From Ptychodera flava (lineage: Eukaryota; Hemichordata; Enteropneusta; Ptychoderidae), in assembly GCF_041260155.1 (NCBI RefSeq), contig NC_091928.1, positions 29,630,388-29,694,387 of the forward strand: 64,000 nt of DNA, read 5' to 3'. The position numbers and the translations under genes were made by a program. The first letter of the stretch is position 1; every line of letters starts with the position of its first letter. The notes beneath the pieces were generated by a model, which saw nothing but the letters and a program-made list of their open reading frames with translations, did no database searches and was not told the origin of the DNA. Below are positions 22,950 to 64,000 of the stretch, one piece after another.

Positions 22950-23430
22950 TTACTGTGTTATGTAGAGAATAACTTTGTGACACATGTGTTGATGAAGAAG
23001 GTGGTAATCTTTGACAGCTGATTTCACGATGGCCTGATAAAAAATGTCAAAAATAGCTGCAAAAATGCACAAAGATTTCATCATAATTTCAATATATCAC
23101 ATAATAAGGATCATCCCTGACAGCATGTCAATCAAAGCTATGAGACAAGTAGTTTTTTGAGAGACAAATGTTTTGAGCAAAAATGCAAAATTGCCCCCAA
23201 AATACAAAATTAAAGATTTAATCATGATTTCAATATATCATATTGAGATAACCACTAGGAATCTGTATACCAAATATCAAAAATATCTGACAAGCAGTTT
23301 TTGAGAAACATTTTTTGACCGAAAATGGCAAAAATTGCCACAAAAATACAAAATTGCAGATTTCATCATTATTTCAATACATTAAAATGAAGATAACCCT
23401 AGGAATCTGTATGCCATATATCTAAGCTAT
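22950..23430 (+). repeat. interspersed repeat: block B plus about 2.7 units of the AAATTGCC family
   Basis: Block B (22950-23035: TGTTATGTAGAGAATAACTT, GACACATGTGTTGATGAAGA, GATGGCCTGA) recurs at 48084-48170 and inverted at 34365-34470. It is followed by units of about 150 bp with CAAAAATGCAAAATTGCC, AATACAAAATTGCAGATTTC and TAACCCTAGGAATCTGTATG. The same units make longer arrays at 51.1-52.0 kb. Confidence 0.6.
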
Positions 23431-32149: not shown

Positions 32150-34060
32150 AAGAGTGACGTAAAATTGTCAAATTAAGGGTTAATACAAAACCAGTGAGGC
32201 AACATTTCTTTTCGGAGGTCTTTATAAATTTGGCATATACAAAGAAAATGATATTCATCCTCACGCAGAGATTATTAGTTTTCAAACAGAGTTTACAATA
32301 TCTTTCATTTACAGGAGTGTTTTCATGGCGTCCTTTCTCGATTTCAAGAACATGTGATGAACATCGGAATCTTGAAAGCGCAAATCTAAATTTAGAAATG
32401 TGTACACTGCTCAAATATTTCTCTGGTTCAAGTATTGTCTTAAAGGTGCAGTAACTACGTAACCTAGGAGACGATTCTACATCCTGGTGCCAGTTTTGCC
32501 CAGCACAATCTTTCAGTCTCTGGGTAAATTCAGATAAAAACAAGTTAATAGACCATGTTCCGAACCGCGCGAGACATTCCGAGATATCGCGAGAATATGT
32601 GGTTCGCAGTGGACGTGTTCTCGCAACACAGGACAAACTGCGTAAACAGGACAAGTCGCTAATTACGTTAAACACTGCATAAAATATATGAAGTTGCAAT
32701 CTTTGCTCAGTTCTGCGCTTTTTCTAGTTCCATACAAAATTTGACCTGTATTACTAAGCTGGAAATCTGTGTCTACGGGCATGTATTAAAGTCTTGCGAG
32801 ATCTCGCAATAAGCGGAACATCGTCTATTGAACCCACACCTTGATTTAGCCATACATGGCCAAATCCAAAGCGGTAAAGTAAGGTTTTGACATTATAGAC
32901 CCAATTAATAGATTTTATCGCTCGTTCTTCAGATAACCTACTTAACATAATATAGCACCTGTATGGATATCTATGAGAATCCATCTGTAAAATTTTCAAC
33001 CAATAAGTTACACACCTTTTAAAATACATGACATAGAGGGGAAAACGGCCACACTCACCAATTGCAGCAAGATCATTCGTTTTCCCCACTGACATTTAAA
33101 AGAAACTTACAAAACTGATAGTGAACTTGCTCAACCAGGGGAGAATAGTCGTAGCCCCATAGTTCACTACCATACAATAAGACCGGATAAGTATCAAAAA
33201 GTTTAAAAGAATCGTGCAGTGACAGTCAACCTAATTTTCTTAATACAGATTTCAATTGAAACATGGCTTTTCGACCTTGTGGAGCTTGATTTTTCTCGGT
33301 TGGACTCCAAGTAAGTCTGGAAGAGAAAATTAAACCCAAATATTTGTACTGTGGCACGACTTTAATCGGTCTTTTGTCCAAAAACCACTTTTCATAATTC
33401 TTAAGAGGACCTCCTCTACGGAAAACAATAATTTGGGTTTTATCTAAGTTGACACTTAGTCCCGAGTGTGAACAGAATAAATTTAACTGATTAATTTGTC
33501 TCTGAGTGTGAATTGGTAAATCAGATCCTTCTGCTATGTCATCAGCATACATCAAAATATTCAGGTACGGTTTTGCGCTTCTTCGTCAACATAAACACCT
33601 TCACAACCAATTTTACGAGTATATGACACAAGATCATTAATAAACAAGGAAAGAGAACAGGCTTAACATACATCCTTGCCGTGTTCCGATTGTACATTCA
33701 GAATAATCAGTACCGGCAGGAGTACTTACACAAGATTGCAAGTTTTTATACATTGATCTGAGAACAGAAAGAAAATTGCCGTGAATACCATAACTGATAA
33801 GTTTATCCCACAACAAAGTATGATGAACAGAGTCAAAGGCTTTTGAAAAATCTATGAAAATACAATAAAATCTACCCTTTCGTAATGTGTTGACGTTGCT
33901 TCTCTATCCTGACTAATCCATGCACAGTTAAGACAATCAAACATAACAGTACGCGTAGGACACAAAAATTGATAATATCGTAAGTATTTCCGAATACAAT
34001 GTTGTATCGACATGTTCACCCATGTAAAGGTCATATGGCAGGGACGCAAATTTTGAAATA
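32150..34060 (-). mobile_element. LINE fragment with reverse transcriptase core and C-terminal region
   Basis: Minus-strand frames in order give CIFIDFSKAFDSVHH (RT motif A), a GTRQGC block, LMYADDIA (catalytic YADD), VVPQYKYLGLIFSSRLTW, then the post-RT segments GECGRFPLYVMYFKRCVTYW, YGFG-type words and FRCSSHVLEIEKGRHENTP..ERYCKLC. The order matches a non-LTR retrotransposon; the clade was not assigned. Several frame changes show that it is dead. The 5' end (endonuclease) is absent. It lies just upstream of locus 2 in opposite orientation. Confidence 0.88.
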
Positions 34061-35572: not shown

Positions 35573-37268
35573 ATGGAAGGACTTTCCGCAGTGTTGGTTG
35601 TATCAACATCATGGAAACCAAGTTCAAAAGGTTCAACAACTTGGGAGCTAATCACTGATTTCTGTGAAAATACATTCGCGAAGCAGCCTATGAACCTTCT
35701 CAACTTTATTGCACTGTCCTTGATGATGAAGTGAGTGAGGAGCTGAGAGAAAATGCTACCAAGTATGGTGTTACTTTGATTTCGGCAACTAGACCAGAAT
35801 GGTCTTACCGTGTTGAAGATCCCCCTGCATTCAACTGGCTTCTCAATCATCAAAACTATTATCCAGGACTAGGGAAGTTAGACAATGTTGGTCATGTTGT
35901 GGGATTGCATGGAAAGACAAGCATCGCTGCATCCGCAATACATGAAAGTCTCTTCCCTCAAGCAAAACTTCATCTTTTGGATTTAAACCTGGAGCAGTAT
36001 TTGTTGCTGATGCCTGGAATAAAGATGAGTTAGGTCTTACAGCATTTCACAGAATCCTTGTCCAAGATTTCTGTGCAAGGAAAGCCAAGGCAGGAGAATC
36101 TTTGAAAGCCTACTCTACTGTACTTGAAGTCAAAGTCAGTGATGATCAGAAGACAGATGCTGAGAGCTGTTGTGTTACCTTGATTCCAGCACAATATCAG
36201 AATGGGCTGATCCAAAAGACAAACTCCCAGCGTTGAAGTGGTTGCAATATCATGAAATTCACTACCCTGAGCTGAGAGAACTAGAAAATATCCAGTATGT
36301 TGTTGGATATGCGCCAAAGACAGGACATGCAGCAATACGCATTCATAAAACATTGTTCCCAACATCAAAACTGGTACTCATCAATCATGTTCATCCTCAT
36401 AGTAACTGCCTGCAAGCAGAGGAATATGGTTTGTCAGACTTGAAGATGAGATGTTGCGAATGGCAAGTGCAGCTGACCTGATATTTTCAATTGGCCCAAA
36501 GATCCATCAGTATTTCAAGAATCATTACAGGGTAGAGGTTGCGGGTAAAGACTTGTCAGAAATTCCACATGAAGAAATTCTGCCAATGCCAAATACTGAT
36601 TTTCGGACTAAAAAGCCCAGTAAGCTCACGGATCTCACACAACACAATGTACTGACATACGGCCAGATAGATAGACACGAAGATATCATAAAGTGCAAGT
36701 CAATAGCAACTGCTATTAGTACAGCGGCTAAGGATATTAAAACATGCAATGTAACCTTCCTGAATGGAGGATACAGGTTGGACATCAACATGTTTTGAAG
36801 CCTGGTAAGGACCTCTTTGCTGACAAGAAAAAAACAAGTCAGGTACTGCCAACATTGTGTACAGGGTGCTCAGCTAAATCATTATTGAAATCACTGCAAC
36901 AAGCCCATCTTTGTATACCTACACAATTTTACAGGAATTATAGTTTTCATGGTTTAGAGGCAATGGTATTTGGGCTACCAACCTTCCTTCACGACAACTC
37001 AGACGTAGCATATTTCATCAAAAAATACTTTGCCATTTATGGAGATACATGGATTGTGGAGAACCCTGAGAAGAACCTAGCAAAGAAAATTCTTCAACAT
37101 CTAGCAAACACACCATTGGCATTTCAGAAAGCAAAGGCACTGAAAGAGCAAATGTGTACAAGTGATGTTATATCAGCAAGTTATGCTACATTCGCATCTC
37201 TCTTAAAAAGTGAGAAACGAACCGAAGATGTAACCAAAGACATGGCACGATTGAAAAAAGATGAGAAG
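35573..37268 (+). pseudogene. GT-B glycosyltransferase-like exon with duplicated N-terminal half and broken frames
   Basis: The ATG at 35573 opens [15 protein letters not shown]. The first Rossmann-like half runs to about 35990 ([60 protein letters not shown]). A second copy from about 36003 repeats the order ([71 protein letters not shown]) and continues through [24 protein letters not shown] and [16 protein letters not shown]. The C-terminal half has [19 protein letters not shown], the EAxxxGxP signature of GT-B family 1 enzymes. The frame changes about five times (near 35660, 36000, 36160, 36440 and 36770), several at short homopolymers. So this is a decaying gene or local indel errors. 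It ends at AAG/GTATAT. Donor and acceptor of any reaction are unknown. Confidence 0.7.
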
Positions 37269-40200
37269 GTATATTATGAAATGTTACTGTTATAATTTTT
37301 CAGCATATTTTGCCTTTATTCAGCAAAGGAATATACTTGTGATATCACCAGGAGTAAAAGACGTGTGGTAACACTGTCATTACATCATGAGTATTTTCCA
37401 AATTGAACAAAGAAAGAGACCACGTCTGATTACACGAGCCTTCACAGAAAAAATGCAATTGTTGGGGTCTCTGCAAACTCTGCACCTGAGACTGCACAAC
37501 TGAAAGCAAGGTGTTTGAATATCCATTCTCAGTTGTTGGAACCATCACAGTATTTAAGTTTATTGTCAACATATTGAGGTAGAGATAGGGCTCCTGAAGT
37601 GAATAATAATACTCCTCATTAATATGCAACTCCTTTGGCTTGATCAAACTTGCCGAAATCGAGAAAAAAATCTGGGGCCATCGAGTAAATTTTTGTACTA
37701 GAGATCAAAATTACCCAATAATTACTGATTTTTGAAATTCAAATGATTATCTTGCTTGGGTTATTTCTTTTTTGGCAAATAAAATTCCCGATTTTCACAA
37801 AACGTAAAATGTTTATTTACTCCATAAAGCTTCACACTGAGACCCCACAAATGGCAGGCCGAAAGAATATTGTAAATGTCGGAGAGTCGGGAAATCTTTC
37901 CCTAATGTGCATTCTACCTTAACTTAATTTGTGGGTTAATTGAGAATGCTGCTTTTCAGCTTGTGGCTGGTATTTCTATCTTTGAGTTCGCTGTTGTTTT
38001 GAACCAACACTGTGCCTTTAGTCATGGTTGGAGTTAGAGCTTGCAGAGATCCTTACTTAATTTATAGCACATTGAGGCAAGAATTTGTTATTTTTTGCCA
38101 AACAAGTGTAATATCTGTCCTCAATTCCGAGTCTAAACTTTAAAAAGTATACATTATGGAATAATGCCAATATGCAGCGGGCAAGTTCTCTTTCATTTTC
38201 AATCGTTGGTTGCTTGAGTGAGTGAGATGAGCATTAAACATGTTATTTACATACATAAGCTTGGTAAATGTCAGACAAATGGCTTGGCCTAACATTATAA
38301 TGATCTCTAGCAAAGTTCTACACATTATTTCAAAGATAGGAATTAAAGCAAAGAAATATACCCAAGACAAAATAATATAGTTACACTAAAATGAAGTAAA
38401 ATCTCCAGACTATTTATACTGAATGGAAGCTGACAAAATGTAATAACATACAATAAGTGGATGATGGCGACAGATGGCGACCCTACACAGTATGTCTGTT
38501 TGGGTAAAATGTAAAACAACTATTTCACAATCTTGTCAGTGTTTACCCTCATCCAAGGTGGCCAAGAACAATGGCATGATAGCTATTAAATTTATCCTCT
38601 TCAAATCTCCGATCATTGTAATTCAGGGTCCATGTCCACCGGTACTTCTGTAGCTAACATTTCTGTTTTACTTTTCTACATTTCTGTAACATAATAGACT
38701 CTGTCGAAATACAAATAGAACTGGATCGCACTGTTTATCCACATCATTGTACAGAAGTAGACGAACATGTGAATGCATCATCCGCACAACCACGAATGAG
38801 ACAGAATGGGGATGAAACTAACAACAGGGAGGCTACATCGCAATTCTTTCATGAGGCAATGAAGCGTAGAGTACAAGAAGTAAGAAGTAATGGTGATGGA
38901 GATTGCTCTCAAGAAATGAAGAAGATCTGCAAGGATAAACTTGGTGATGTGAATCTGTCCAGTTTTACATCAAAGTCTTTGGCAATCTTGTTGAAGCTTT
39001 TAACTCTTTACAATCTCTACAGGTTAAAGCAGACTTGTAGATCAGGAGGTCTAGCAAAAGCGTTTGAACCACTATTGATAACGGAGGAGATGAGAAGGCT
39101 GCTGCTGAAGTTGGAATAACTTTGCGACTAAGAGCGACATATGACCAAGAAAGGTTCAAAGAAGTTGAGCTTTTCTTCATCAATCGTAAGTTTTTATAAA
39201 GTCTGTTCAACAATAATAGAATGATAACACTGCCAGGGGATTTTGTTTTGATGTTAAATGAACGTAGACACCCAAATTTTGAAATGTGATTTCAATGTTG
39301 ATATGAGCTGATCGCATTAATGATCAGCTGGATAATGGGCACTGATTAAAGCAAACGAGTCTATAGAATGAATTCCAAGATGAATTAATCATATATCGGA
39401 ACCAGTTTCTTCCTTCTACTAAAGCATTTTGATACATTAAAAATAATCGAAGCATTTGATTCAAGAAATCAAACACCTAAGAAAGTTTAAACTAACAGAT
39501 ATAAATATTTTGCCTCACAATCTATACTTATGTTGAAGAAGTGGGTAACTTATTTGCTGTGTATTTGATGCATAAATAACATAATTGATTGGGAAAAAAC
39601 TCCCTTAGTTTCAATGTTGTTGTAAAACCAGTGGATACAAGTCTTACATTGTCCAATTAAACCCTTGCAATGCGTTTTTTTCCGAAGGAGATGGTGGCGG
39701 AATTCAGCCCATGATTATCAATGACGATGCCCTGACAGAATCAGAAGAAACTGAGGAAGCCCAGAATAGTTCAGACGTGAGTAAAATATTGTTGCAATAT
39801 GTGACTGGTAGAATGGAAGAATGTTATGCTGGCTGCTGGGTGTTGCATTTAAGGGCACAGTAAATTTCGTTGAAAGTTGGAAATTTACTAGTGCTTTTGT
39901 AGACATTATGGCATAAGCGCATTGACCAATTGATGTCCACATTTGTAGGCCAAATATGTGTAAACAACAAGGGTGGATGTTTCATCTACATTTGTCAGTT
40001 TACAAGGCAATGATCAAAAGTGAGTGATTATAGCTCTTTCAATTGAGATATTCTGTAAGATTGTATTTATATGCATTTACTTGTAAGTGATGACAACACA
40101 TTCATTATAAATCTCACTTTCTAATGTCTATAAATATGACTTTTATTGATCAATTTTCAGGTTACGCTTGGTCCCATGTTACAATAACATGCGTCAGATA

Positions 40201-42690
40201 TATGGTGTGCTTTGTTATTTTATAAAATTGTGAATAAAATCTTTGTTCCTGAAGTTGGAATTTGAACAAATGCAATTTACTTCTGCGGAAAAGGGGACCA
40301 TATTGTAGTACCTCTGAAATGCACACATATTGTACAGTACTGTCAGTATATAAGCATATATGTATACCAAACCTGCGAGTTTCTTTAGTCAATGTGACAT
40401 CAGTAAGGAGGCAAAATTGAAGGGTTTCAGCTTATAAATGTACTAATGCTGCTGTATTATGTTTTAAAGGATGGAAAGTTAGTTATGTTCAAGAACATCC
40501 CAGTGATATCTGTATGGATGATCATCATGAAAAGGTAATACTCTTTTGACATATTGGATTCAATAAAAATCAACTTCACTGAAGTTATTCAGTCACTTGT
40601 GAAATGCAAAAGCCTTTCAAACGATTCTTATCCTACATATACCCCATTGCCTACATAATTGGGCCATGTACATATTCAGCTAATAATAAATTAACTTCAT
40701 CGTCTTAATATGCAAACTACAGTACTCATGACTTCGTCAAGGAGATAAAAATCCTCAATTTTAGAAAAATTATGACTTTTTACATGGCAATAGAAATGAC
40801 AAATATGGCAGTGAGGAAAATCTGACACACTCATATGAATTGTTATATACCCACGTTTACATGACATATTTTCATTTTTCTTGCAGATAAGGAATCGTCA
40901 AAGCTTTTATTGCTTGGACTGGATCCTAACTATGAACTCAAGCCATCCACTGAGACTGTGATACGTTCACTGTTCCAGGCCAAGCAGTGTACCAGACAGA
41001 AAGGGAAACATCATGACATGATACAATTAGTGGTGAAAGTGACAGATAGTGTTCAAGATATCCTATCCTCCAAACAGGAAGTTCTAGCATTACTGGGTGT
41101 TACAGTTATCTCCTAATTGATACAGGAACAGAGGATCTAACATCTCTGGGTAACAATTAATGTTATTTTGTTTTAGTCTCAGCAAATAAATTAGTATTTT
41201 ATTAGATATATATCAAATGTCTTGCACTCTGATTTAATGTAAGCTTGTTGATGACCTGGCAAGTTGAAAACTATCACTCCTTCAGACTCAATGTCAGCAA
41301 TTTTGATTAAGACGGTTGGTTCCTTGGAACTTTCTGGAATCTTGTTGCTACATTTGACTTAAGGTAGTATGCGCCTCGAAAGTACAAGACTTGAACTTTT
41401 GCTCAAACTTTCTTCAATGAATATTTCAACCACACTCTTTCAAAATCAAGAATTAAAATACGGATCAACGCACAAATTTTCGTACTAGATAAACAAATTA
41501 CCAAAGATTTAAACATGTTTGAAATTCAAAATGGCTGCTATCCCTGTGTTGACTCTGCGGAGAAAATGAAATTTTCGATTTTCGAAAAAGTAAGATTGTG
41601 AAAATTTTCTTACATCAAGAGCTTTAAACTAAGCCCCTGCCCCTAGGTCAAAAAGTAATTGTGAAACTTTGAGAGTCTGAATATCTTTTTCTTAGGCACA
41701 TTCTACCTGAAGTTCAATTTTCTTGCATTAGTATGGATTGTTTGGCCATTTTGTCTGACCAGTCCTTGTGATGTCTCCATTCAAATTTTATATACCTTCT
41801 GTCATAAATGTCTGGCAGTCATTAATTTTTACGTTTATATCATGAAACTGATAAAACAATCAATTCAGTTAGATTTGATAAGTAGGAGCCATGCAGCAAT
41901 ATTGCTCATTACTTTATTCACCAAGTCGTAACAATGAGCTATAGTGGCTACCAGGTTACTGAAAAATAATGTCCATACTTGTAAGTACGGTATATAGTAG
42001 GAGTTACTGCTATCCAATTTCAAAACAATGTTAAATGGGGCTGTTTACATGGATATTATTCTTTAAAGTGTAGAAATATTGCTAACAAAAAATGCCGCCA
42101 TTATTGGAGTGAATATACATTTAAAATGGTAGCAATATAAGGATTGATACATATTCAAAACTAACAAGAAAGCTACCATGTTAAGTAAAGTTGCCGGAAG
42201 TCCGAACAAACTTGTACCAGCTCTGATAATTTTCTTTGATTTTCTCACCAAACCAACAATTTTAATTCTTTCAACGTGTCAAAGAGGCATGTATTATAAG
42301 TGAAAGTTTTTACTTACTCAGCCAGAAATCTACCTATTCTAATTTTACTTCTTTAAGGAGCATGTGAAGCATGGTCGCACAAGAAGAATATGTGGTCAAT
42401 GTGATATAATGGAAGAAGTAAACATTGACTAACACAATGTAATACTAGTAGATTATAGTCCTGTTGAGTGCTCCAGGACCTCTGACTCTGCGTGTGAGCA
42501 AGAAGTCACAATACGACTTACAGTCTTGCCAGTTTCTTTGGCCTGGGGGGGTGGGGGGGTGGGGGGGTTTATGGTGGATAAATTTTTGCCGTCGCCATAA
42601 AAGTGGCTGACACCATCCTATTCCAACTTTCAAACACAGGGTGACACCCCCACCCCCCCCCCCCCCCCCGTGCGACAATAGTAAAACGGG

Positions 42691-42751
<61 letters not shown>

Positions 42752-45700
42752 TTTTTTCTGTGTTTTAATGAAATTGTTGGCATGTGAATTGTAAGATAGA
42801 ATTTCAAGGTGTCAATTTTAAAGTTCGAATACAGTATTTTTAATGAGCTGTGAATATATTTCACTCTTTCTATGCATTACCAGATGCCCTGAACTGTAGT
42901 ACATAAATGGATGACAATCATTAATATCAAAGAAAGAAAAGCAGTTAATCAAAAACTTGATGGGTGTTTAGACTCGCCAGCCATCCAATAAATCTTCTGA
43001 GAAGCCAAAGAGAGCTTTTTGTATAAGTTGTAGCCAAATATGATGTGCGCAGTGTCTGTGAGGACCTTTTCTATTTTGAAACCATAAAAGCACAGCCAAT
43101 AATGACAAAAATGCCTTTTTTTAACTACTATTTTACTCATGAAAAAAACCACCTTTTTACAGAAACCAAAGGAAAATAGTTGCATCAGTGAGAAAGAAAA
43201 ATACCTTGTCATATTTCACTTTCTAAAATATGCCACTGTATCAAATATATTGTGAAATGTTAGTGCATGATGCTTTCACATACTGAATTCTCATAGAGAA
43301 AACCAAAAAGTATCAAATTTGTCATGCTTTTCATATGAACTTCAGATTTCATAATGATCAGTACACTTTGCAAACAGCTAGACTTTCAATTTGCAAACAT
43401 CAAGATATGACTGATATATTCTCAGATATATTATAGTACCGCACAATATTAAACATACAGATATCTGTGATATATATGTGTGATATACAGAGTCACGCGC
43501 CCTTCAGGTGTGATTAAAAATGTGTCTGATGTAATAAAGTTAAGCTCCAAAAGGGTGCACCAAAAAATGCAACTGAATGATGAATTTGAGGCTGGCACGA
43601 TGCATTTTAGGCAAGTATGGTCCTGTGTTGAAATTCAAAAACAAACTGACTCCCCCCCCCCCCCCATTGCATATTTCAAAAGCATGGTGACTTCCCTATT
43701 ACTAAAGTCAAAAACAGGGTAACCTATCATGATTCTACCACCAGAAGAAGAAACCATACCGAAGAAACTGACCAGACTAGTCCCTAATTCTTGGTGTTAT
43801 AACTTTGTCTCTCTTTTCCTTTTTATTAATGCAGCTGATATGGAGGAACACCTCACAAGGGATGGAACTAAACTTCTCTCACTACCAGTATCACATGAAA
43901 ATGTCACTTTACTTGCTAGAAGTTTAATACCTTTTCAAATGAGCAAATCGTTGAAAAGCTTTCAGTTCCACAGCATCAATTAGATGAAGTTAGTCAAGAA
44001 AAGGCCACTTTGAAAGCACAAAATATAGAGTTGACAAAGAATTTAGAGAGCACTGAGAAATCGTTAATATATCAATTACGTTCCATAACAGAGAAATTTA
44101 CAGTTGAACTGAAAGAGAAGAAAACGCCATAACTGACCTCCATAGAAAACTCTCCAAATTAGGTAAGAAACACTCTTCTGAACTGGAAAAGATGGAACAG
44201 ATCATAACTGACCTCCGCACAAAACTCTCAAAATTAGAACAGAAACAATCTTCTGACTGGAGAGGAGATGACTGACATCATAAAATTATCGGAATTAGAA
44301 GAGAAACAGCCCGAGTCAAAAATACAAGGAGTGGAAGACAACAAATTTGAACAGCAGTATTCAAAACGCACAGAAAGAGTAAACGGTGAGCATCTTTAAT
44401 GCTATGGAAGAAAGACAACTAAGATGCATTAATTCTGATATTTTAATAAACAGTGTCCTTTGCATGACAACTTTAGATGACCATACTACAATATTTCCAT
44501 TGTTCATCTTTAGAGAAAGTTTCAGTGCAAGGGTTCCAACAAGATAGTGGAAACAGTGGTGAAATGAAAACTAAGCCAACAGAACAAGAATTGATCAGTG
44601 GAGAAATAAGTGAGACGGCAGCATCCACTGCAACACGACCTGACAGGCCTGGCAAGGAGAGAAGGAAGGTGAAGAGAGCAACTTCTGAAACAACAGCATA
44701 TGATAGAGGTATCGGTACAACTTAAAAACCTCAGATGCCGACTTAAGATTTTTATAGTTTTCTTAATGTAAATTTCTTTTGGTTTTATAAACAATCGTTT
44801 ATTACCATTAGAACCAAGTCTGCATATCTCCAATCAAAATTTCAAAGCAACAAGTCATCGTTGATGACACAGTCCCCACTTATTAATGGGTATTTTGATT
44901 ACAGGTCCTCAGAGAGGATAGAGTCCTCTTCATTAGGTCTGTGATAAAAATACTTTTGAATGAATTCGCTTGATACATGTCTGAGTTATGGTTCAGGACA
45001 TGAAAAAATCGTAACAAAATGGCCGCACAGTGGCCATATTGGATCGCATCACAAAACCAATTGATGTGCATAGCTATGACATTGGTCGATGTCCTTGTAC
45101 CAACTTAGAATAAAATCGGTTGAAACATGCGGATATGCCTGAGAAATGGCTCTGTACATGAAAAAATCGTAATAAAATGGCCGCCTGGCGGCCATATTGG
45201 ATCGTAGCACAAAACAGATTGACGTTCATATGTATGACATAGGTCAATGTCCGTGTACCAACTGTGAATAAAATCCGTTGAGATATGCCCGAGTTATGGC
45301 TCTGTACATGAAAAAATCGTAACAAAATGGCCGCAAAGCGGCCATTTTGGATCATATCACAAAACAAATTGATGTGCGCATCAAAAAATCTAATGATGGC
45401 ATCAATTGGTGTGCTATGACATTTGTCAATGTCCTTGTACCAACTTTGAATAAAATCGGTTGAAACATGCCTGAGTAATGGCTCTGTACATGAAAAAATC
45501 GTAATAAAATGGCCGCCTGGCGGCCATATTGGATCGTATCACAAAACGAATTGACGTGCATATCTATGACATTGGTCAATGTCCTTGTACCAACTTTGAA
45601 TAAAATCGGTTGGAACATGCCTGAGTTATGGCTCTGTACATGAAAAAATCGTAATAAAATGGCCGCCTGGCAGCCATATTGGATCGTATCACAAAACAAA

Positions 45701-48700
45701 TCGACGTGCATCTGTATGACATATGAAGTAATCCTTGTACCAAGTTTGAATGAAATCGTTCCAGGCATCTCTGAGATATCTGCGTGAACGGACGGACGCA
45801 CGGACGGACGCACACACGGACGGACATGACCAAACCTATAAGTCCCCCCGGACGGTGTCCGTGGGGACTAATAAACACAATGCTTCTTCAGTCCGGATAT
45901 CAGCAACTGCCTATGATGTAGTTCATTGACAATGACAGGAAATGACTCATAGTCATTGCTGTCCTCCATAATGTTGGCTGTTTCTTGTACTGGCTCTCCC
46001 TCTCATAGAAGGCAAAAGCTTCATGGTTGTGAGGGCATCATGATCACTGTATGAACAGCTATCTAGGGATCAGGAGTGCAATGTAGACATATACCAAATG
46101 TGAGGCCTTTTACTAAATTTTTTGGTACATGCCAGCTCAATTTAAAGAAAGGTAAAGAATTCAATTTCAGTATTTGCCAATATCTAGGCTTTCAGAAAAT
46201 ATATACTTAGCTGGCGATAAGAGCTAAATTTTCAGCTGAGAGTTCATTACTTGGAAGGGACAGACAAAGAGCCAAGAACATTAGGCTGAGATAGCTTACT
46301 TGGACGGCTGAGGGCTTGCAGCTCTTTGCGCTAGAGATAGGGGTGCAACCCCTCTTATGGCTGATGAGCCCAAGTTTCATGAGTATTACACGCTAAGTGC
46401 TGAATAGACCAAATGGGAATTTGTTTCTGTCGTGACAGGCCTAAACAGCAGCCTAGAGGTGCTTAGTGTTTCTCCGTTGACTGGAGCAAGTCAAATTACA
46501 ATGGTGGGCTTGTTGACTCTGAAGGCATTTGCTGTACATTGGGCAGTTAAGGTTGAGCTAGGTCTTGTGGCTGTGGATTGCTGTGAGCTTTTCATGGAAG
46601 ACCATGCATGAAATGGTTGTAGGCTGGCAAAGCAATCAGGTGCCTGAGCTTCATTAGAGCACACAAGCCCCACCTCATTTGAGGAGGTTCTCCATGGTCT
46701 TCTCAAAGTCTGAGCTGTTCATCGGCTGGTACAGGTCCTTCACAAAGGTGATGGTTGCCCTCTTGAAGAACTAAATGTTCAGCCGTATGCATGGCTCCAT
46801 CCATTGTCTCTGCTTCATATCAAGGGTGTGATGGATCTTTTACAACCATAGTCCCTGGGAGAGATATAGCTGGAGGGAGTGGTAGTGAAGGACGTAGCGC
46901 TTCTTGTCGTGAAGGTTTGGTACCAGTTTTTCTACCTTAAGGGACGCCATTTTTCAAAAGAACATTCGCTGGTATGCCAACAGCTACTCTTCTTTTCACT
47001 TGTGGAAAATATTGTGAGAAATGGCTAGAAATGAACACTTTCTTGCTTTAATGTGAGAATGCAGCGAGAATTTCATTTTTCGGTCACTCATGGATGAGAA
47101 TTTATTTTCTCACCATGAGTCTGCGAAAAACAAAATTCTTGCAGTCAAACGGCAAGAATTTGCTTTTTATGCTGTCGCTATGTGAAAAAATCAAGCAATA
47201 ACAAAACTCCAAGAGTTGAAAAAGGAAATGTAAGTTATGGGAGTAGTTTGTAGTTCACCTGACATTGCCAACAATTCAACACCATTGTGCCCTGCATGAA
47301 AACTTTTTGAGCACTCTGTTGTATGGAGGAACACTGCACCATTTCAAAAGAATAGTGATGTCAAACAAACAAAGCATTTTATCAAGTGGTGACATAACAT
47401 GCTCTGACAAAAGAATATCTAACATATAAGATTAAAATCTACGAGCCTCATGCCTTCCAATGACCGCAAGTATCACAAAAAATTTACGGTCATAAAAATC
47501 TGCGCAAAAGGCCAGAGGTTAAAAGTTCTGAATTCAGGGGTCAGAGGCCGCAGGTCAAGGGGCCACAGATAGGAACTTGTTGTAAAAAGAGACATAAGAA
47601 TTATAACCTTACATTTCTTCTCTATGAATAAGAAGGTTGGTTAGCTCAGTCAGTAGATATGATACTTTTGATATCAAGTTTGTGGGTTTGAGTACAACCC
47701 CCAGGCCGGATGATTCAAGTGGTGACATAGCAAGCCTATTCATGGTTTGACCATTATATTACACTTCCATCAGTATGTTTACGACCTGACAAGCTTGTAA
47801 ACACAATGACAGATTTTCTGAGCTGTGAACCAGCTAGCACAGAGCCAGTAACTATAAAGACAGACATGCTTCGCTGTCTGTTTTGTAATCTGAAATCCGA
47901 CTGGGATTATAAACATAGGGCCAAAGTCCCTGAAGCTACTATAGACATGGATACAAAATTAAGTATTTCGTGACTGTATGAAATTATCTCACTAGGGTCA
48001 TCCTAGGGACTTGTAAACCAAATATTAAAGCTGTCTGACCAGCGGTTTTGAAAAAACAAGCAGTCGACAGAGCTCTGCTGTGTTATGTAGAGAATAACTT
48101 TTTGTGACACATGTATTGATAAAGAAGGTGGATATCTTTGATAGCTCATTTCAGGATGGCCTGACCGAAATGGAAAAAAAAATTCCGTAAAAATACAGAT
48201 TTGCATATTTCATCACAATTTTAACAAATCTAAGTTGGGTTATCCCTAGGGACCTGTATACCAAATAACAAAGCTGTCTGACCAGTGGTTATGAAGAAGA
48301 AGATTTTTTATCACAAACACCTTTTTTGGCATTAATTTGCATATTTTCAACAATATCAAAAAATAAATAAAATCAGTTTCTCAAAATCACATATTTTATC
48401 CACACAACAAATATCAAATCAGTAAGTACAGCAGTTCTCAAGATATTTGAGTGGACGGACGCCTCACAAACGGACATACATACATACATACATACATACA
48501 TACATACATACATACATACATACAGACTGACAGTGGACACTGGACGGATACCCGTCCCAATAGCTTCTATAGACTATATTAGTCCATAGTAGCTAATAAA
48601 CGAGAGTTACAAAATACATTCTAATTAAAGTAAACAAGACTTGCTTAAATCAAGATTTACGTCATGAAAAAAACAGCATATCTGTCAAATTACCATTGTA

Positions 48701-51700
48701 AGTAAGTTCTGTTGAATAAGTTGAGACTATGTACTCAGAGAAAGCTCACTGAAGAGACAAATGTTTGAAACTTAAGAAGTTCAAGGTCATCAAAAGCATT
48801 ACAAGAAATCATGTAACACTTTCATTGCACTGTTTACACAGATTGCATAATTGCTATAAATAGCACATGAGGAATCTTACAGCCCAGCTTTACCATAAAA
48901 ACCCTATCACTTTGACCACTCTTTTAATTGACCACTCTATTTTTTTCCTCAAAAAGTAATTTTATTTTATCCTTACCAAGTCAACCATAAATAGAAATTA
49001 GAACTTTCCCTGTCTCTATTTATTTGACCATCCTATTATGACAAACTATTATGAGCAATTTCTTTTAGATAACATACAGGGCACAATAAATGACGGTTCA
49101 GAATATGTCAAAGTTGGGATTCAGGAAAGTTACCTATACATGTTTTAATCCTCCAAGATGGAAAGCATTTCACTATGAACTGTCAAAAAAGTTGAACTTT
49201 CTGATAATTCTACACTGACATTATTTTGGCTTTGATGATTTCCTATTTAATTCAATTATTTAAAATCATATTAATTATTTTTTTCTGGGTGAATTGATAG
49301 GGTTTATACAGTACAAGAATTACATACAATGTAAGTCAAATTTTGACCAAAAATGACAAAAAAATTTCCTTAAAAATACACATTTGCACATTTCATCACA
49401 ATTTGAACAAACCTAAGTTGGGTTATTCCTTGGGACCTGTATACCAAATAACAAAGCTGTCTGACCAGCGGTTATGAAGAAGAAGATTTTTTACCAAAAA
49501 CGCCATTTTTGGCATTAATTTGCCTATTTTCAACAATATCAAAAAATTAAAAAAAATAGTTTCTCAAAATCATATTTTTCATCTACACAACAAATACCAA
49601 ATCAGTAAGTACTGCGGTTCTCAAGATATTTGAGTGGACGGACGCCTCACAAACGGACATACATACATACATACATACATACATACAGACTGACGCCGGA
49701 CGGATACCCATCCCAATAGCTTCTATAGACTATAGTAGCTAAAAAAATAAGGAAATTTCTGAAAGTCAGGTGGGAGCTAGGTTTAAAATTAGAAAATAAT
49801 GCTGTGAGGATTGGTAGCCCTTCTACAACTGTTGCCATGACAATTTTTTTGCAAATAAACCAAATGATCATTATTGCATATGAATGACTAACCGCAAAGT
49901 GTGATAACAGCATAGACAAAATAGTAATTTTCACAGTTTCAAAGTGAGAGATATCTATTTGATTTCAGGTATTTTGTAAATCTTAAATGAATGATCAAAA
50001 ATGCATGACTATGTCATTTTTATCATGTGTTTCATTGAAAAACCTATGCCTGACATCATTTCAAATGCATATGAATGAATCTTCACCTGAGTAATAGGGA
50101 AGGAGTACAGAAATGAATTTTTTCACCAAAATCTAGAGTTTTGCCATGGCAATATGATTTTTACTAACGCTACTCGTTCGTAGAATGCTATCTACTATCA
50201 AATGATATAATATAAGTAAAATAGTGACAACATCACTGTTCGCTCCCATATAGTTATCAAAACAAGTCAACAATTGTATGAAACATGGACATACATATAC
50301 AGACAGACTGACATACACAGACTGGCACAGAGTGATGACATTGACCCCAAGTGTGCCTTGGGCCATGGAGAGAGATAAAGATATAACAAAACAGCTGAAT
50401 GTAATGATAAAATAGTTAAGTATAGGCCTATACAGGCACTGAGAGTGAATATGTTACAGCAATTTGATTAGTTTCTTTTCCTTTTCTACTTCTGTGATAA
50501 TTTTTAAGACAATCAATCTGCAAGGCAGTTTATGTATTGACAAATATGTTATCTTTTACAAGCACACAGTAAACTGTTCTTGATTTTTCATTTACAATAT
50601 ATGACATAGACTGAAATACATAACATGCAACCAATGTTTACATTTTGCCCAAACACAAGATACATGGAGAGATTTCAAAATACAATCATTAACTCAGAAA
50701 CCCTACAGGGAAAAATAAACATTGTTTTCTTCCAGTACACCTGGTGCATCCACATCTGGAACAACTTACAAACTTAACCAATTACACAAGGATGATGACA
50801 CAAGAGATAAAGTTAAGAATTTTAACTGTGGTGAACTTGACTATTCCTTTCAAATCCTTCCCTAACTTGACATCTTAAACTAAAATACACTGCATGGTTA
50901 ATTGTGCACAAAAATACATCGGGGTGGACCATTTGATAAGGGATGGTGTCTGGAAGATCGATGAGGTACATTATCTTTTTTATCCGATCCATTGTACATT
51001 CTTTTTTCCCCACTCTCCCACCTTTTCTTTTTGTCAAACCTTCTCTGGCTGAATTTTTTATTGGCATTTGTTCGGAATTTTTTCAAAATCTGCCAGGATT
51101 TTTTTAACGCATTTCAACACCAAATACAGTTTACCATATCAAATGCTTACTAAATCACAACATTATATACTCTTAGTTCAAGTAGGTATAAAATTACCAA
51201 AAAAAATCTTAAAAATACAAAATGAAAGATATCCCAGTAAAACTGAAAGTTTCGCAAAGTTGCCCCAAAAATTCAAAATTCCGGATTTCAACTTAATTTC
51301 AATATATCTTATTAACAAAAACCCTAAGGACCGGTTTACTAAATATCAAAGCAATCAGACTGGTAAATTTTGAGAAACAAATTTTTTGACCAAAAATGAG
51401 AAAAATTGCCCCCCAAAATACAAAATTGCAGATTTCATCCTAATTTTAAATATATCTAATTAACATAAACTCTAGGAACCTGTACACTAGATATCATAGC
51501 TACCAGATCAGAAGTTTTAGGAGAAAAAATTTTTGACCAAAAAAGGCAAAATTGCCTCCAAAATAAAAAAAATTGCCAGTTTCAGCATACCTTCAATACA
51601 TTATATTGAGATTATTCTTAGAGACCTGTATGCCAAATGCATGTATCAAAGCTATCAAATCAGTAGTTTTTGGATTAAAAATTTTTTATCAAAATTGGGA

Positions 51701-53328
51701 AAATTGCCCCAAAATTACAAATATGACAATATTAATACAATTTGTACAAGCATGAATGAGGTCATTCTGAGGACCATGAATATTAAATTTCATAGCAATG
51801 AGACGAGCGATTTCAGAGAACAAGATTTTTTGACTAAAAACGGAAAAAATACCCTAAAAATACAAACATGCAAATTTCATCCCAATTTTTGCACACATAA
51901 TTTAGAATACCTAACGAAATCTGCATACCAAGTTTCAACCAAATCTGACCAATGCTTACTGAGTTTTAGCCATTTGCAGGATTTTTCCTTTTTCTCCCCC
52001 TCATTTGCATATTTTTGGCACTGACATGTTCATTTGAACAAATTCACATCTCCACCCCTAGGTGCACCTGTACACCAAATACTAAGACAGTAGGTGCTAC
52101 GGTTTAGGAGTTTTTGATGTGGACGGACTAACAGACATACATACATACATACACACAGACGCCATTTTGCCACCTTATATGAATACCTCCCATTTGCATA
52201 TATACATATGCATATGGGAGCGTAAAAATATGATGTGCACATGCAGAAATCTGTCATAGTTACAAATTTAAAAAGTAATTAATTTATGGGTTTTTAATTG
52301 TATAAATTGAGTTGTTAAAAGGAATAATAATGATAATAATAATAATAACAATAATTGCAATATGAATGGTAAAAGCTGTACAATTTTATTCATATCAATA
52401 CCATCAGTTACGGTTGGATTACAATATATCACATCTTACAGAACAACCTGCTTCTACCTAACATTCTTCAGTGCAACACCTATCCTGGTTTAACCTTTGA
52501 CCTTTCAGGACACTGGTCAAGAAAAAATGTGAATGTTTATCAAGGGCAAGAGAAGTTCAAACAATATGCGGTCTGGCCTTCCACAACGATAAACTTCTGG
52601 TGTGTGACAAGGAGAGTGGTGTTATACAGATACTGAACCGTGATTACAAATGTGAAAAAGCGTTAATATTATCAAGTGGTTTTGGTAGTGAGTTTGCCAA
52701 ACAAGTCTGGCCAGAGTGTATAGTGGTCACTTGGGACAATCTGCTGCTCCTCCTTGATGACAGTAATTTGCAAATTGTTGTTTTCGATCAAAAGTATAAA
52801 ATTATAAGACTAATTGTTCTACGTAGAGACACAAAACCCTCATGCATTGCTCTTGTCAAGAGTTTTGTAATAGTCACAGACGTCAAAGGTCACCGTGTCC
52901 TCAAGTACAGCCTGAAGGGACAGTATGTTGCAAAGGTTGGTGGTCAAGGTGATGGCCAAACAGAATTCAACCACCCCTACTTTGTCGCTGTCAACAGTAG
53001 GGATGTCATCATGGTGTCTGACTGTTGGAATCACTGCATCAAGTGTTTTGATACGGAGTTCAATTATCTGTACCAATACGGTCAGCTAGGTCCCGGCGAT
53101 GGTCAGCTGTACCACCCACTTAGCATTGCTATTGATGGTGCTGACAATGTATATGTTTGTGATTATGTCAATAATAGGATTTCGATGTGGAGTAGAGATG
53201 GAGCATGGAAACGTCATCTATTCCAACATGAATTAATAGACCCCTGGCACATAGCAGTGACCGCCAACGGTGATAGAATTGCTGTTGATGGACCAAATGG
53301 CGATGAAATTGTAGTATATTCTAAGTAG
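35573..53328 (+). CDS. candidate multidomain gene: GT-B glycosyltransferase-like, TRADD-N-like, coiled coil and six-bladed NHL propeller
   Basis: Proposed exons: 35573-37268, 38698-39185, 39688-39776, 40470-40534, 40887-41096, 43835-44385, 44514-44708, possibly 50736-50811, and 52509-53328. All are on one strand. Several neighbouring borders agree in phase: 38698 to 39688; 40887-41096 (phase 1 out) to 43835 (phase 1 in) to 44514. Others do not fit exactly because of frame breaks. The joining is inference; two genes are possible, since 40887 onward can also read to a stop at 41116 followed by AATAAA near 41187. No signal peptide or membrane segment was seen, so a cytoplasmic protein is likely. 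An enzyme-like N terminus, a death-signalling-adaptor-like domain, a coiled coil and a ligand-binding propeller recall invertebrate innate-immune sensors; the function is not established. Confidence 0.5.
37660..37926 (+). mobile_element. MITE family M1, copy 3
   Basis: Carries the core (TTTTTGTACTAGAGATCAAA, TTTTTGAAATTCAAATGAT, GATTTTCACAAAACGTAAAA) and ends in ATGTGCATTCTACCTTAA, close to the family right end. Lies in the intron between the glycosyltransferase-like and TRADD-N-like exons. Confidence 0.55.
38698..39185 (+). pseudogene. TRADD N-terminal-domain-like exon, one frame break
   Basis: The acceptor at 38697 opens a frame with an acidic/basic linker, then [73 protein letters not shown] and, after a one-base shift near 39090 (AGAAGG), [20 protein letters not shown] and KEVELFFIN. 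Order and spacing of a helix, an IVQLR-like strand, a helix with YREGALRAAL-like sequence and a last LQLEL-like strand resemble the TRADD N-terminal domain, also reported in other metazoan and bacterial immune proteins. Similarity judged by eye. The exon ends at 39185 before GTAAGT and joins 39688 in phase. Confidence 0.45.
39688..41096 (+). CDS. three short exons following the TRADD-N-like exon
   Basis: 39688-39776 (89 nt) reads [20 protein letters not shown], acidic. 40470-40534 (65 nt) reads [11 protein letters not shown] in one frame; its exit phase does not match the next exon. 40887-41096 (210 nt) reads [38 protein letters not shown] and [16 protein letters not shown], helical and unassigned. 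Using GG/GTGTTA at 41096 it joins 43835 in phase. Unspliced, it runs into TAA at 41114-41116, with AATAAA near 41187. Confidence 0.5.
41359..41711 (+). mobile_element. MITE family M1, copy 4
   Basis: The left end TTAAGGTAGTATGCGCCTC and right end GGCACATTCTACCTGAAG are inverted. The core has TTGCTCAAACTTTCTTCAAT, TTTGAAATTCAAAATGGC and GAGAGTCTGAATATCT. The most complete forward copy in the window. Confidence 0.7.
42358..42417 (+). other. possible 60-nt exon
   Basis: A good acceptor (TTTACTTCTTTAAG) and GTAAAC donor enclose a frame open only in phase 0: [20 protein letters not shown]. The CxxC pair is suggestive but too short to call, and it does not fit the phase 1 junction proposed between 41096 and 43835. 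It may be an alternative exon or chance. Confidence 0.2.
42540..42747. repeat. G-tract, C-tract and (TA)n cluster
   Basis: Three G7 runs separated by single T (about 42544-42567), a C-rich run with 20 or so C (about 42646-42669) and a (TA)n tract of over 25 units (about 42692-42747) lie within about 200 bp. The G block can form a quadruplex, or pair with the C block as a hairpin. Confidence 0.85.
43656..43669. repeat. poly(C) tract
   Basis: A run of about 14 C in otherwise AT-rich intron DNA. Confidence 0.8.
43835..44385 (+). pseudogene. coiled-coil exon with frame breaks
   Basis: Acceptor TTTTTATTAATGCAG. The frame gives [20 protein letters not shown] and [14 protein letters not shown], then in other frames [38 protein letters not shown], and an internal repeat of about 24 residues ([20 protein letters not shown] / [18 protein letters not shown] / [13 protein letters not shown]). 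Heptad-rich coiled coil, probably for oligomerisation. At least three frame changes. Exit AACG/GTGAGC is phase 1 and fits 44514. Confidence 0.55.
44514..44708 (+). CDS. linker exon after the coiled coil
   Basis: 195 nt, phase 1 in and out, reading [39 protein letters not shown] and [20 protein letters not shown]. Polar and low in hydrophobics, likely a disordered linker with a basic patch. Acceptor TGTTCATCTTTAG is good; donor is AGAG/GTATCG. Confidence 0.5.
44876..45875 (+). mobile_element. Helitron-like non-autonomous element with five units of about 150 bp
   Basis: Units recur at 44990, 45148, 45298, 45480 and 45630 (spacings 158, 150, 182, 150), marked by GGCTCTGTACATGAAAAAAT. Each carries a short palindrome ATGGCCGC-NNN-GCGGCCAT followed by ATATTGGATC. 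The array is followed by GGACGGACGCACGG-type DNA and a terminal hairpin (45841-45869, 12 of 13 pairs) ending GGGGACTAATAAAC. Hairpin then CTAA recalls Helitron 3' ends; a central tandem array recalls oyster pearl and fly DINE-type elements. Long frames on the minus strand arise because 150 is divisible by three. Confidence 0.6.
45900..46480. other. gene-free stretch
   Basis: No exon or repeat family recognised between the tandem-repeat element and the Polinton fragment. GGCTGATGAGCC at about 46361 is a small palindrome only. Confidence 0.3.
46490..46930 (-). mobile_element. fossil Polinton/Maverick fragment: protein-primed DNA polymerase B piece
   Basis: The minus strand shows conserved blocks of Polinton family B DNA polymerase in the right order: [15 protein letters not shown], then a histidine/leucine block with [10 protein letters not shown], and FEKTMENLL within the polymerase motif usually read as NNSxFGKTMEN. 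Only this roughly 440-bp part is recognisable. No integrase, protease, ATPase or capsid gene and no terminal repeats were seen nearby. It is broken, with several breaks, and looks old. Confidence 0.75.
47633..47710 (+). repeat. tRNA-Lys(TTT)-like SINE head or tRNA pseudogene
   Basis: An A box (TAGCTCAGTCAGTAGA, 47642) and B box (GGTTTGAGTAC, 47685) are at tRNA spacing. An anticodon arm TGATA-CTTTTGA-TATCA gives anticodon TTT, and a T arm GGGTT-TGAGTAC-AACCC is present. The acceptor stem pairs poorly and no CCA-proximal end is clean, so a functional tRNA is unlikely. A tRNA-derived SINE fits best; its 3' extent is unclear. Confidence 0.5.
47990..48600 (+). mobile_element. Helitron-like element of the AAATTGCC family, with block B
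   Basis: Core units with CCTAGGGACCTGTATACCAA and AAAGCTGTCTGACCAG flank block B (48084-48170). Then come GTGGACGGACGCCTCACAAA, a (CATA)n run (about 48476-48522), a hairpin GGACGG-ATAC-CCGTCC (48542-48557) and a 16-bp-arm imperfect palindrome (48561-48595) ending TAGCTAATAAAC. The 3' end thus has the same CTAATAAAC as the element at 45.87 kb although the sequences differ. Confidence 0.6.
48890..49318. mobile_element. possible pogo-like MITE
   Basis: Left TACCATAAAAACCCTATCA and right TGATAGGGTTTATACAGTA are approximate inverted ends. TTTGACCACTC and AATTGACCACTC just inside resemble pogo/Tigger terminal regions. About 430 bp, non-coding. Confidence 0.45.
49335..49745 (+). mobile_element. Helitron-like AAATTGCC family copy, short form
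   Basis: Nearly the same order as 48180-48600: a TTTTGACCAAAAATGAC core, ACCTGTATACCAAATAACAA, GTGGACGGACGCCTCACAAA, (CATA)n, GACGCCGGACGGATACCC and the terminal palindrome TAGCTTCTATAG..TATAGTAGCTA (49717-49741). High similarity to the 48-kb copy suggests that both are fairly recent or derive from one local duplication. Confidence 0.65.
50736..50811 (+). other. possible short exon before the NHL propeller
   Basis: A strong acceptor (TTGTTTTCTTCCAG) is followed by a frame reading [20 protein letters not shown], linker-like. A different frame (phase 1 in, phase 2 out before GTTAAG) would bridge 44708 and 52509 exactly. Which frame, if any, is used cannot be decided here. Confidence 0.3.
51080..52225 (+). 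mobile_element. long AAATTGCC family array (about 5-6 units of about 150 bp) with terminal hairpin
   Basis: Diverged units repeat TTTTTTGACCAAAAA, AAAATTGCCCC, AAAATACAAAATTGCAGATTTC, CTAGGAACCTGTACAC and ATCA(T/A)AGCTA about every 150-160 bp from 51180 to 52020. The 3' side has ATGTGGACGGACTAACAGAC, a (CATA)n run and a hairpin at 52187-52220 (CTCCCATTTGCATAT against ATATGCATATGGGAG, 14 of 15 pairs). Open frames here are by-products of the repeat. Confidence 0.6.
52509..53328 (+). CDS. six-bladed NHL-type beta-propeller exon (C terminus)
   Basis: Acceptor TTTGACCTTTCAG; an uninterrupted frame of about 272 codons to TAG at 53326-53328. Six blades are visible: [100 protein letters not shown] and [20 protein letters not shown]. 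Linkers [14 protein letters not shown] and [14 protein letters not shown] are typical of TRIM2/3/71-like NHL repeats, which bind RNA or protein. Entry phase 2 shows that exons precede it; no RING or B-box was found in the window. The nearest upstream coding pieces are the coiled-coil exons at 43.8-44.7 kb. Confidence 0.9.
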
Positions 53329-56641: not shown

Positions 56642-59600
56642 CTACCGATATTCATCCCCACAGTCCCCTATCCTGGCAAAGAGATCCTGTGACCTCCTGC
56701 AGACAGCCTCAATCTTCTCAGTGTCACTCTGGGTCAGGTCAAAGGTGAAAGTTCGCAGATTGTCACTGATGTGCTCAGCACCTTTGACCCCCAGTCTGCA
56801 GCCAATGATGACGCCTCCTACAGCTGGTTGGTCCAGGATGTATCTGGTGGCTACATTGGGAATACTGACATTGTGAGATTTTGCGATGCCGTCAAGCACC
56901 TTCAGCAGTTCTTGGAAGAGTTTCCAACCACCCCATGCATCTATCATCTGTTTGTATTTACCCAGAGATGCAGTGTTGAGTTCTCGCCTTCCTGCAGGTT
57001 CTGGAACATCTAGATATTTCTCACTTATTAGGCCACCACCTGTAATGTAAACATAAAATATAAAACAGATAGTAGTACTCATGAAAATGTGAGTTTCTTG
57101 TCTATACTGCTAAACTGTTATCTTGCAATGAAGTCTAAATGTTCACCTTGTAAGTCACTGTGCAAACGGACTACAAAAGCAACTAACCACAAAATTGCAA
57201 ATATGTGAAATTCAAAATAGCCACCATTCTTTCTCTCAACTCTGTGGGTAAAAGTAGAAAGCATTTGCTAGCAAAAGTGAAGTTCCAGAGACCAAAGCAG
57301 TGGAAGAAAAGAGAATGTGTGACAAAGATTGGTGCAGAATGAAAGAGTGCTTGGGATTTTAATATGCAAACACGTACCTATAGTGAGGGCTGATAGCAGT
57401 AACAACAGAATACAACACAGAATACAACTCAAAGCAAGGCAGTCCAGGGAATTACAGTACACAGATTACAAATGCCTACATGTACGTTGAAAAACGAAAG
57501 AGATACATACCGGGGCGACAACACATGGAAATGTATATCAGACGAGAGGAGACATCGGACCAAGGCTGTTGAACTTGAAAACCGAGGCCATTATAATGCA
57601 TTTTCAATTAATGCTTCTTAGAGTTTTTACCACTGACTAAAACAATTTTCATTGCTATGTTGCTGTTTTCACAAGATACTGACCATTTGATCTTGGAAAG
57701 TTGAGTTGCTCTTACGTGCAGCCAACGCATGCCGGTGTGGTGACAGACAGTTCACTATGGTATGCCTAGCTCTGCATGGCAGGGCTGTGTGTTACCAGTG
57801 TTAAACGACCTCCCACCACAGCCCTGCAGACTGATATAGAAAAAACTGCTGGTGGCTCCTAGAAATACAGCGGGCAGTTTATCCGCCGAAAACAGCCGAT
57901 TTTGAATCCAAAACTTGCATTGATCTTCGTTTTCGAGCACATTCACCTCACCTAGGTACACGATGTGCCCAGCCGCGCTTGTAAACTTACGCAAAACCTA
58001 CTTTTCTCTCTATGCGAGGGAAGCATTCGTATCCGCCGCCATTGTTAATCTCATTCAACCCATGAGCACTCGGGCGAAAACCAGCGTGAGTCTAAACCAT
58101 ATGGAAGGCGTATGATGTAAAAGAATAGTGCCACATAAGGCGAGTATTTAGAGAAAAATAAAAATCAAAAAGCAACGAAAAACAAAGCAAAAGAAAGCTA
58201 AAATTATTAATGACTGAACGCAATATGATAGTTGTGCAATTCAAAATAAAAAATAAATAAATAAACACACAAGAAATGCTCGTGAAACCGGTCCGAGCTG
58301 AGCGATGACGTCATGAGCGTGTTGCAATGCATTCTGGGTAATGAAGGTAAAATTTGTGTATAGCATGTTTTATGGTAGTAATACCAGAAATAGAGAAAGA
58401 AAGAAAGAAAGAAAGAAAAGAAGGAAAGTGAGCAAAAACTAACAGTTCCAGAGCTGGTCTCTGGAACTAATAACATTTTTCACAAAAACAAGATGGTGGA
58501 GATTTAATTTCTTTCTAAGTCTTGAAATCAGTCTATTAGCTTACTGTGACCTGCTAAGAAGTGTTCAGAGACATAACCTAATTAAATATTGTTCAATGAG
58601 GTGAAAGGGTTTATATAAAAACTTGATATGTTTATGTGTTGGTATGATAGCTATCTGTACATGAAACACAGACTCAATATTAAACTCTCCAAATTAAACT
58701 AAGAGAAAACGTTTCAAAGTAACATTAGCTACACTGGCTGTTACACCAATTGACAGTCAGTGTGATGTCAGATTACAGGAGTTAGTTCCACAATAAACAT
58801 CAAAGGATTGGAGTCATGTATTGTAAAAATATTCTTACATGCTTGCATAACATTTTCTTCTACCTGCAAGCAATGAGCACCTGCGACTTGCAATGTCAAA
58901 GGTCGTAACTATTTCATCTGAGGTCAGGTCAAAGGTGACACATATACAAAAGGTATTCGAGTCAATGCATGAACCTTGCGCCTACAGGTTTACTTACCTA
59001 TGGTTCCATATGTCAGTAGTTTGATATCATGAGCCTGACAGAATTCTGCCATCTTGACAGCGGGTCTTCTATCAATGATGGAATACTGCACTTGATTGGT
59101 TGAAATTCTTATACCTTTGTCGGAAATCTCTTTCATTCGCTGAGTGTCAAAGTTAGTCAGTGCCAGTTCACCTGGTTGACAAATCAAAGGGTTGTGGATG
59201 AATATAAATCATGTGAAAGAAAGAGAAAACAGTATCACGGATACACAGTCAATAATTGAAAGAGATGAACTGTTTCTACTTTCTGAACAGCAAAGAATTC
59301 ACTACTGTACCAGACCCTGAGCTGTGTTAAAGGGTTATGTATGAGCAAAGATGGCACAAGGCTGTAGCAGTGCGGTAAAGATATCCGAGTGTACATAGTG
59401 CAGTTCTGTACACACAAGTGTGTAACAGTGTCTGAACCTTTTGATGATATCAGTAACTATTTTACATGACAGCACTCGGCTCTGCGGAGACTGACTTTTG
59501 AAAGCTTAGGATCTGAAATTTGTGCATGGCTGTCACTTGTCATACTTTGTTTGATAACAGATCTGATATTTCTAAGAATGTTCAAAACTTGGAGATTTAT

Positions 59601-63249: not shown

Positions 63250-64000
63250 GTTGCCTCTAAAATCAGCTGATTGAAATAGCTTACATAACGCCAAGATATA
63301 GTAACGCTGTGGCACCCCCGGAAACGTGGGTACTGATGAAATATACTTTACAACCCATTTTGTTGACACTTCTTTAATACGGTCTCTCAAATGAACAGGT
63401 AAACTGAATGAAAGTTACAAATTGCTGAATTCATTCTGTGAATCAGGGAGTACTATTAGTGCGCCCCCAAAAGAATTCTGAGATTGACTTTTGTTTTTAC
63501 AGATTGAGTGAAAAATGCATAGGATTTAAGTTTAAACACTTAAATTGACCACTTTAAAACGTTCAGAGACAACTAATCGGTGAGGATCGTATCCCCGAAT
63601 CGAACCCATTCTACACATTTGCTTTTTTGTTATTGTTTTTGTTATTTTCAAGATGATAATTCAACAAAGCCGATAAAAATGGAAGGCGGAGACCGGGAAT
63701 ACAACAATCTATTTCCCGTTGCACTTCTTTTCCTCGAAAATATGAGATGTTGCTATTTGTAGGTCGGAAACTTTCGTTACTCCCCGTGGGACTACGACTT
63801 ACAGAGAAGAGCCGGGGCATGTGCAAAAGTTAGCATAGATTTCTCTATCTGGTCGCGTTGAAGTGAAAATACTAGAAAACTGAATATCCGCGGTGATTTA
63901 CGCTTGACTAGTAACACAGGTGAAGTATGGTACATTTTGAGAAGCCGATACAATTGGTGAAAATAAACTTTCATTTGTAAAGCTCCGTGCCATGAAAACC
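63250..64000. other. 5' flank of the AKR gene, no further gene seen
   Basis: The AKR promoter should lie in the first few hundred bases. No TATA box or CpG island stands out. Frames to the window end look non-coding. Confidence 0.35.

Follow-up and report, generated by a model that had tools for sequence, protein, structure and literature searches.

Do the same-strand exons between 35.6 and 53.3 kb of a 64,000-nucleotide stretch of the Ptychodera flava genome (contig NC_091928.1; hereafter the window) encode one protein or two? The initial annotation had read them as a single sensor of unusual design, with a GT-B glycosyltransferase-like head followed by a TRADD-N-like domain, a coiled coil, and a six-bladed NHL propeller. 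We favor, with a probability of about 0.5, a different arrangement, in which a GT4-conflict immune-class gene occupies 35573 to about 41116 and a separate gene downstream encodes the coiled coil and the NHL propeller. The features worth keeping are the doubled N-terminal lobe and the lost active site of the GT4 head; the class itself has already been published. Proteins with a GT4 domain followed by TRADD-N, some of them with LRRs, are described in cephalochordates, hemichordates, and cnidarians (Kaur et al. 2021, PMC8195603), and the same paper reports TRADD-N proteins with WD40 propellers, which makes the proposed design less unusual than it had appeared. The features that we distinguish are as follows.

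35573–35997, + strand: first copy of the N-terminal lobe of GT4, from the ATG at 35573; frame change near 35.67 kb (tblastn segments).
36003–36786, + strand: GT4 N-terminal lobe, second copy, running into the C-terminal lobe; the frame shifts near 35.99, 36.19, 36.44, and 36.78 kb.
36765–37268, + strand: C-terminal lobe of GT4 with the motif EAMVFGLP; PF20706 match in 36741–37292; first Glu of EX7E read as Arg.
38698–39185, + strand: candidate TRADD-N exon, unconfirmed; 153-codon open frame with one frame change near 39.10 kb; weak acceptor.
39688–39776, + strand: probable linker exon; acceptor at the 98.4th and donor at the 98.3rd percentile; phase, read by hand, fits the preceding exon.
40887–41116, + strand: stop-terminated exon, probable end of the upstream gene; acceptor at the 99.5th percentile; AATAAA at 41185.
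43835–44385, + strand: coiled-coil exon in which the frame changes three times; it has an ATG at 43840 and is delimited by frame segments, splice scores, and a heptad test.
44514–44708, + strand: low-complexity polar exon, unbroken.
52509–53328, + strand: NHL propeller exon of the TRIM type; acceptor at the 99.9th percentile; no break, save perhaps one close to the 5' end.

A GT4-conflict head with a doubled lobe and an altered active site

When the frames of the 35.6- to 37.3-kb block were read jointly, with an X placed at each frame change, the Pfam GT4-conflict profile PF20706 matched with 115.8 bits (3.1e-33), a score obtained for the complete joined protein across two stretches. The open reading frame at 36741–37292 alone, unjoined, scored 30.8 bits (2e-7). 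Both scores exceed the curated cut-off of 26 bits, and since the unjoined frame passes by itself, the GT-B head is genuine rather than an artifact of joining. By profile, then, the block encodes a GT-B domain of the GT4-conflict family, which bears out the GT-B call of the initial annotation; instead of the one open exon envisaged there, 35573–37268 consists of six consecutive open segments on the + strand, each in the next frame. The EAMVFGLP motif lies at 36957–36980 on the + strand.

Matches to PF20706 above the cut-off also occur in 14/14 control genomes and 14/14 bacterial genomes searched, so the profile is not specific and the label "conflict" depends on score and context. The best PF20706 match listed among the bacterial genomes (93.2 bits) lies below that of the joined block, the two values having been computed in slightly different ways (a bacterial match against a joined protein over two stretches). 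Relatives of the block were absent from the viral contigs, plasmids, and genome contigs searched, and a PDB search with the block gave no match.

The N-terminal half of the GT domain occurs twice, a feature that, like the frame changes and the altered active site, had escaped the initial annotation. In tblastn, residues 174 to 272 of the joined reading match 35686–35982 with 41% identity (E of 2.4e-16), and two more stretches of the block match each other reciprocally; a blastp self-comparison returned only the full self-match, without this lobe repeat. At the active site, the first Glu of the catalytic EX7E is replaced by Arg, at a position where 18 of 19 bacterial relatives have E and one has D, and the arginine of the GR motif is replaced by Gln (R in 18/19 relatives, T in one). 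The second Glu of EX7E, the Gly, and the Pro are retained, and the altered codons sit within open segments. An active GT4 enzyme would have both Glu residues of EX7E and the Arg of GR, and the block has R and Q at two of these positions. The Lys after GR reads Glu in the alignment to bacterial relatives; since a shifted alignment would retain a Lys, we do not count this change as a loss. A metazoan-type alignment would presumably keep the Lys in this block. The simplest reading, judged by residue, is that the GT4 head would be a pseudo-enzyme; the head first described as "enzyme-like" has lost catalytic residues.

The 38.7-kb exon as a candidate TRADD-N region

By eye, the exon at 38.7 kb has a TRADD-N-like order and spacing of elements, metazoan TRADD-N and GT4 patterns having served as the guide for readings by eye. 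Profile searches did not bear this out. A Pfam search returned nothing at an E of ≤1 from a library that includes TRADD-like_N (PF20694), and the C-terminal half of the exon gave no match at an E of ≤10. In an hmmsearch with a 20-sequence TRADD-like_N profile against 2,713 sequences (the exon, the open reading frames of the window, and 2,000 shuffles), the exon was absent among the matches listed, to an E of about 35, and shuffles led. This profile was built from 20 domains from the phylum of a cyanobacterial genome, which are bacterial and distant from the metazoan DEDD2 clade. With hhalign, the exon falls in a sensible register on TRADD-like_N, but 69 of 150 shuffles score equally high. Across the Pfam, hmmsearch, and hhalign tests there was thus no significant match to TRADD-N (PF20694, PF09034), the very outcome that the initial annotation had named as counting against its TRADD-N call, the profiles being bacterial rather than of the metazoan DEDD2 type.

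A published signature of TRADD-N is a tiny residue followed by Ser at the turn between beta2 and beta3 (PMC8195603). The exon contains a KS where this pair was sought by eye, and the hhalign register places KS off the motif. A structure model of the unbroken part of the exon, made with an RRM-like fold in view, is unreliable (mean pLDDT of 41) and shows helices only. A PDB search gave three chance-level matches. The exon may nevertheless be a diverged TRADD-N-type adaptor, a reading made plausible on context by the published pairing of GT4 with TRADD-N (PMC8195603).

Coiled-coil and NHL exons downstream

The NHL propeller stands as first described: the exon matches PF01436 at 4e-17 and TRIM-NHL structures at down to 1.1e-47, the six blades being a count by eye. 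Its structure model is of low confidence (mean pLDDT of 52) and made nearly all of strands. Relatives of this exon were absent from the viral contigs searched. The coiled coil proposed at 43.8 to 44.4 kb holds in part. One piece has a heptad periodicity matched by only 17 of 2,000 shuffles; the other is matched by 610 of 2,000, and the exon carries three frame changes. A minisatellite-like array (44983–45758, units of about 150 to 332 bases) lies between the coiled-coil and NHL exons.

Like the TRIM-NHL proteins TRIM2, TRIM3, TRIM71, and Drosophila Thin, this part of the locus has an NHL propeller with a coiled coil upstream; unlike them, it shows no RING or B-box between 41.1 and 52.5 kb, where neither domain gave a Pfam match at an E of ≤0.01 in six frames, a search that short exons can escape.

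One gene or two

Read by hand, the phase carries over from donor 37209 of the GT block (97th percentile) into 38698 and from donor 39185 (93rd percentile) to acceptor 39688. The acceptor at 38698 falls below the listing limit of the splice-site scan, and this poor acceptor opposite a good donor weakens the border between the GT block and the 38.7-kb exon. Phases into the 40.9-kb exon, likewise read by hand, close imperfectly. The phase agreement claimed by the initial annotation thus stands at the first two borders, one of them with a weak acceptor, and does not extend cleanly into the 40.9-kb exon. A codon-usage scan picked out 39684–39776 and 44537–44716, both outside its training set; having been trained on the GT, 38.7-kb, NHL, and reductase exons, it is not evidence for those exons.

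The upstream gene probably ends near 41116, as judged from the stop codon at 41114–41116 and the AATAAA beyond. The 40.9-kb exon has 14 GT donors. Four of them share the coiled-coil exon's phase; 41096, the strongest of the four, reaches only the 63rd percentile among the GTs of the window. Could all exons nevertheless belong to one gene, with the GT4, TRADD-N, coiled-coil, and NHL parts in a single sensor and the stop at 41.1 kb closing a short isoform? They share a strand, and by hand either of two phase-1 donors, 41096 and 39185, would fit the phase-1 acceptor 43835, though a phase match by itself has a one-in-three chance. No rival head turned up for the NHL exon, six frames of 41.1 to 52.5 kb being free of any Pfam domain at an E of ≤0.01, and it is this lack of a RING/B-box head that keeps the fused reading alive. 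Yet the stop and AATAAA follow donor 41096, that donor is mediocre, and the coiled-coil exon has an ATG of its own. The single GT–TRADD-N–coil–NHL protein is therefore unsupported, and we regard one gene as doubtful. A still bolder version is improbable: one protein combining an inactive GT4, its N-lobe doubled, as a sensor of a glycan or nucleotide-sugar, with a TRADD-N adaptor and a TRIM-type NHL tail.

Frame changes: decay or sequence error

The frame changes firmly at nine places over about 2.74 kb in all: the GT block has five of them, the 38.7-kb exon one, and the coiled-coil exon three. As assembled, these three parts are untranslatable. A possible tenth change, near 52.56 kb, was read by hand only; the program-made frame comparison, which began there at the first base of the exon instead of a codon, shows no step. 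Whether the changes are decay or error is a question distinct from whether the parts are joined or separate, so the confidences that we attach to the readings overlap. The upstream gene would accordingly be a pseudogene, or else be intact and obscured by local errors in the sequence.

The part from GT4 to the coiled coil could be a dead or dying pseudogene copy, with the NHL exon alone kept, a possibility that we place somewhat short of an even chance. The loss of the catalytic-site residues would fit decay, as would the contrast with the neighboring aldo-keto reductase gene, in which about 1.0 kb (residues 15 to 355 of a 356-residue bacterial relative) shows no frame change; each matched exon is single-frame, although changes at match ends would escape, and about three would be expected at nine per ~2.74 kb. 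The clustering of breaks opposite a clean reductase is suggestive, not proof. Each of the nine steps moves the reading into another frame; in-frame stops account for none of them, somewhat unexpectedly if the pseudogene is old. Eight of the nine run in one direction, as deletion-type read errors do, though decay favors deletions too, and the NHL exon, with zero or one break in its 0.8 kb, is not clearly cleaner than the rest. The largely single direction and the lack of in-frame stops between segments point instead to an intact gene that lies where a long-read assembly was poorly corrected, to which we give nearly even odds; the clean reductase exons nearby speak against it. So does the lack of enrichment of equal-base runs, which lie (as runs of at least three, within 25 bases) at 7 of 10 break places against a background of 77%; taken by themselves, such runs do not separate read error from decay.

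Comparison with known systems and possible function

Under the two-gene arrangement, the upstream gene would begin with a GT4 domain with a doubled N-lobe and a possible diverged TRADD-N-type adaptor exon; short linkers would then lead to the stop and the poly(A) signal. Like the GT4–TRADD-N(–LRR) proteins (PMC8195603), it has an N-terminal GT4 domain with a GT4-conflict profile match and then a candidate TRADD-N region. It differs from them in that its TRADD-N is only a candidate, no LRR was found in the scanned stretches, the N-lobe is doubled, and catalytic-site residues are lost. With the coral expansions of NACHT and glycosyl transferase group 1 domains (PMC4083563, PMC12314368) it shares a GT4-type domain and an immune-type animal gene; unlike them, it has no NACHT, TPR, ankyrin, or LRR in the scanned stretches. 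No Pfam death-fold domain or LRR was found on the + strand of 26.6 to 35.6 and 37.3 to 41.1 kb or in six frames of 41.1 to 52.5 kb.

The head may have lost sugar transfer while keeping its two-lobed fold, and its role could instead be to bind a sugar nucleotide, a glycan, or a protein from an invader. The region after it would act in an adaptor-like way, passing the signal to TRAF or death-fold partners. The GT4 domains of invertebrate immune genes have been proposed to be effectors (PMC8195603); if this gene is alive, its lost catalytic residues would argue for at least some of these domains being binding heads instead. The NHL join, if true, would give a known domain shuffle a new tail. We found no literature pairing TRADD-N with NHL, the term NHL being absent from the main text of PMC8195603, and no paper that combines glycosyltransferase, NHL repeat, and TRADD.

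Other features of the window

Its spliced exons mark the window as animal-type DNA. Rfam and tRNA scans of the window were empty. Just upstream of the GT4 gene lie reverse transcriptase fragments (33226–33903, − strand), of which 33226–33585 matches RVT_1 with 29.1 bits, just under the cut-off of 29.6. Retrotransposons near TRADD-N genes have been reported (PMC8195603). A HORMAD-like gene (10361–15469, + strand) has exons for a HORMA domain and, in frame with them, a PHD finger. The aldo-keto reductase gene (56645–63252, − strand, six or seven matched exons) shares up to 69% identity with a protein from a cyanobacterium and 67% with one from a thaumarchaeon; its segments 61215–61319 and 61906–62010 match identical query residues and are perhaps alternative exons. 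Two tandem arrays, 23144–23422 and 51254–51584, have units of about 144 to 148 bases with a look-alike consensus.
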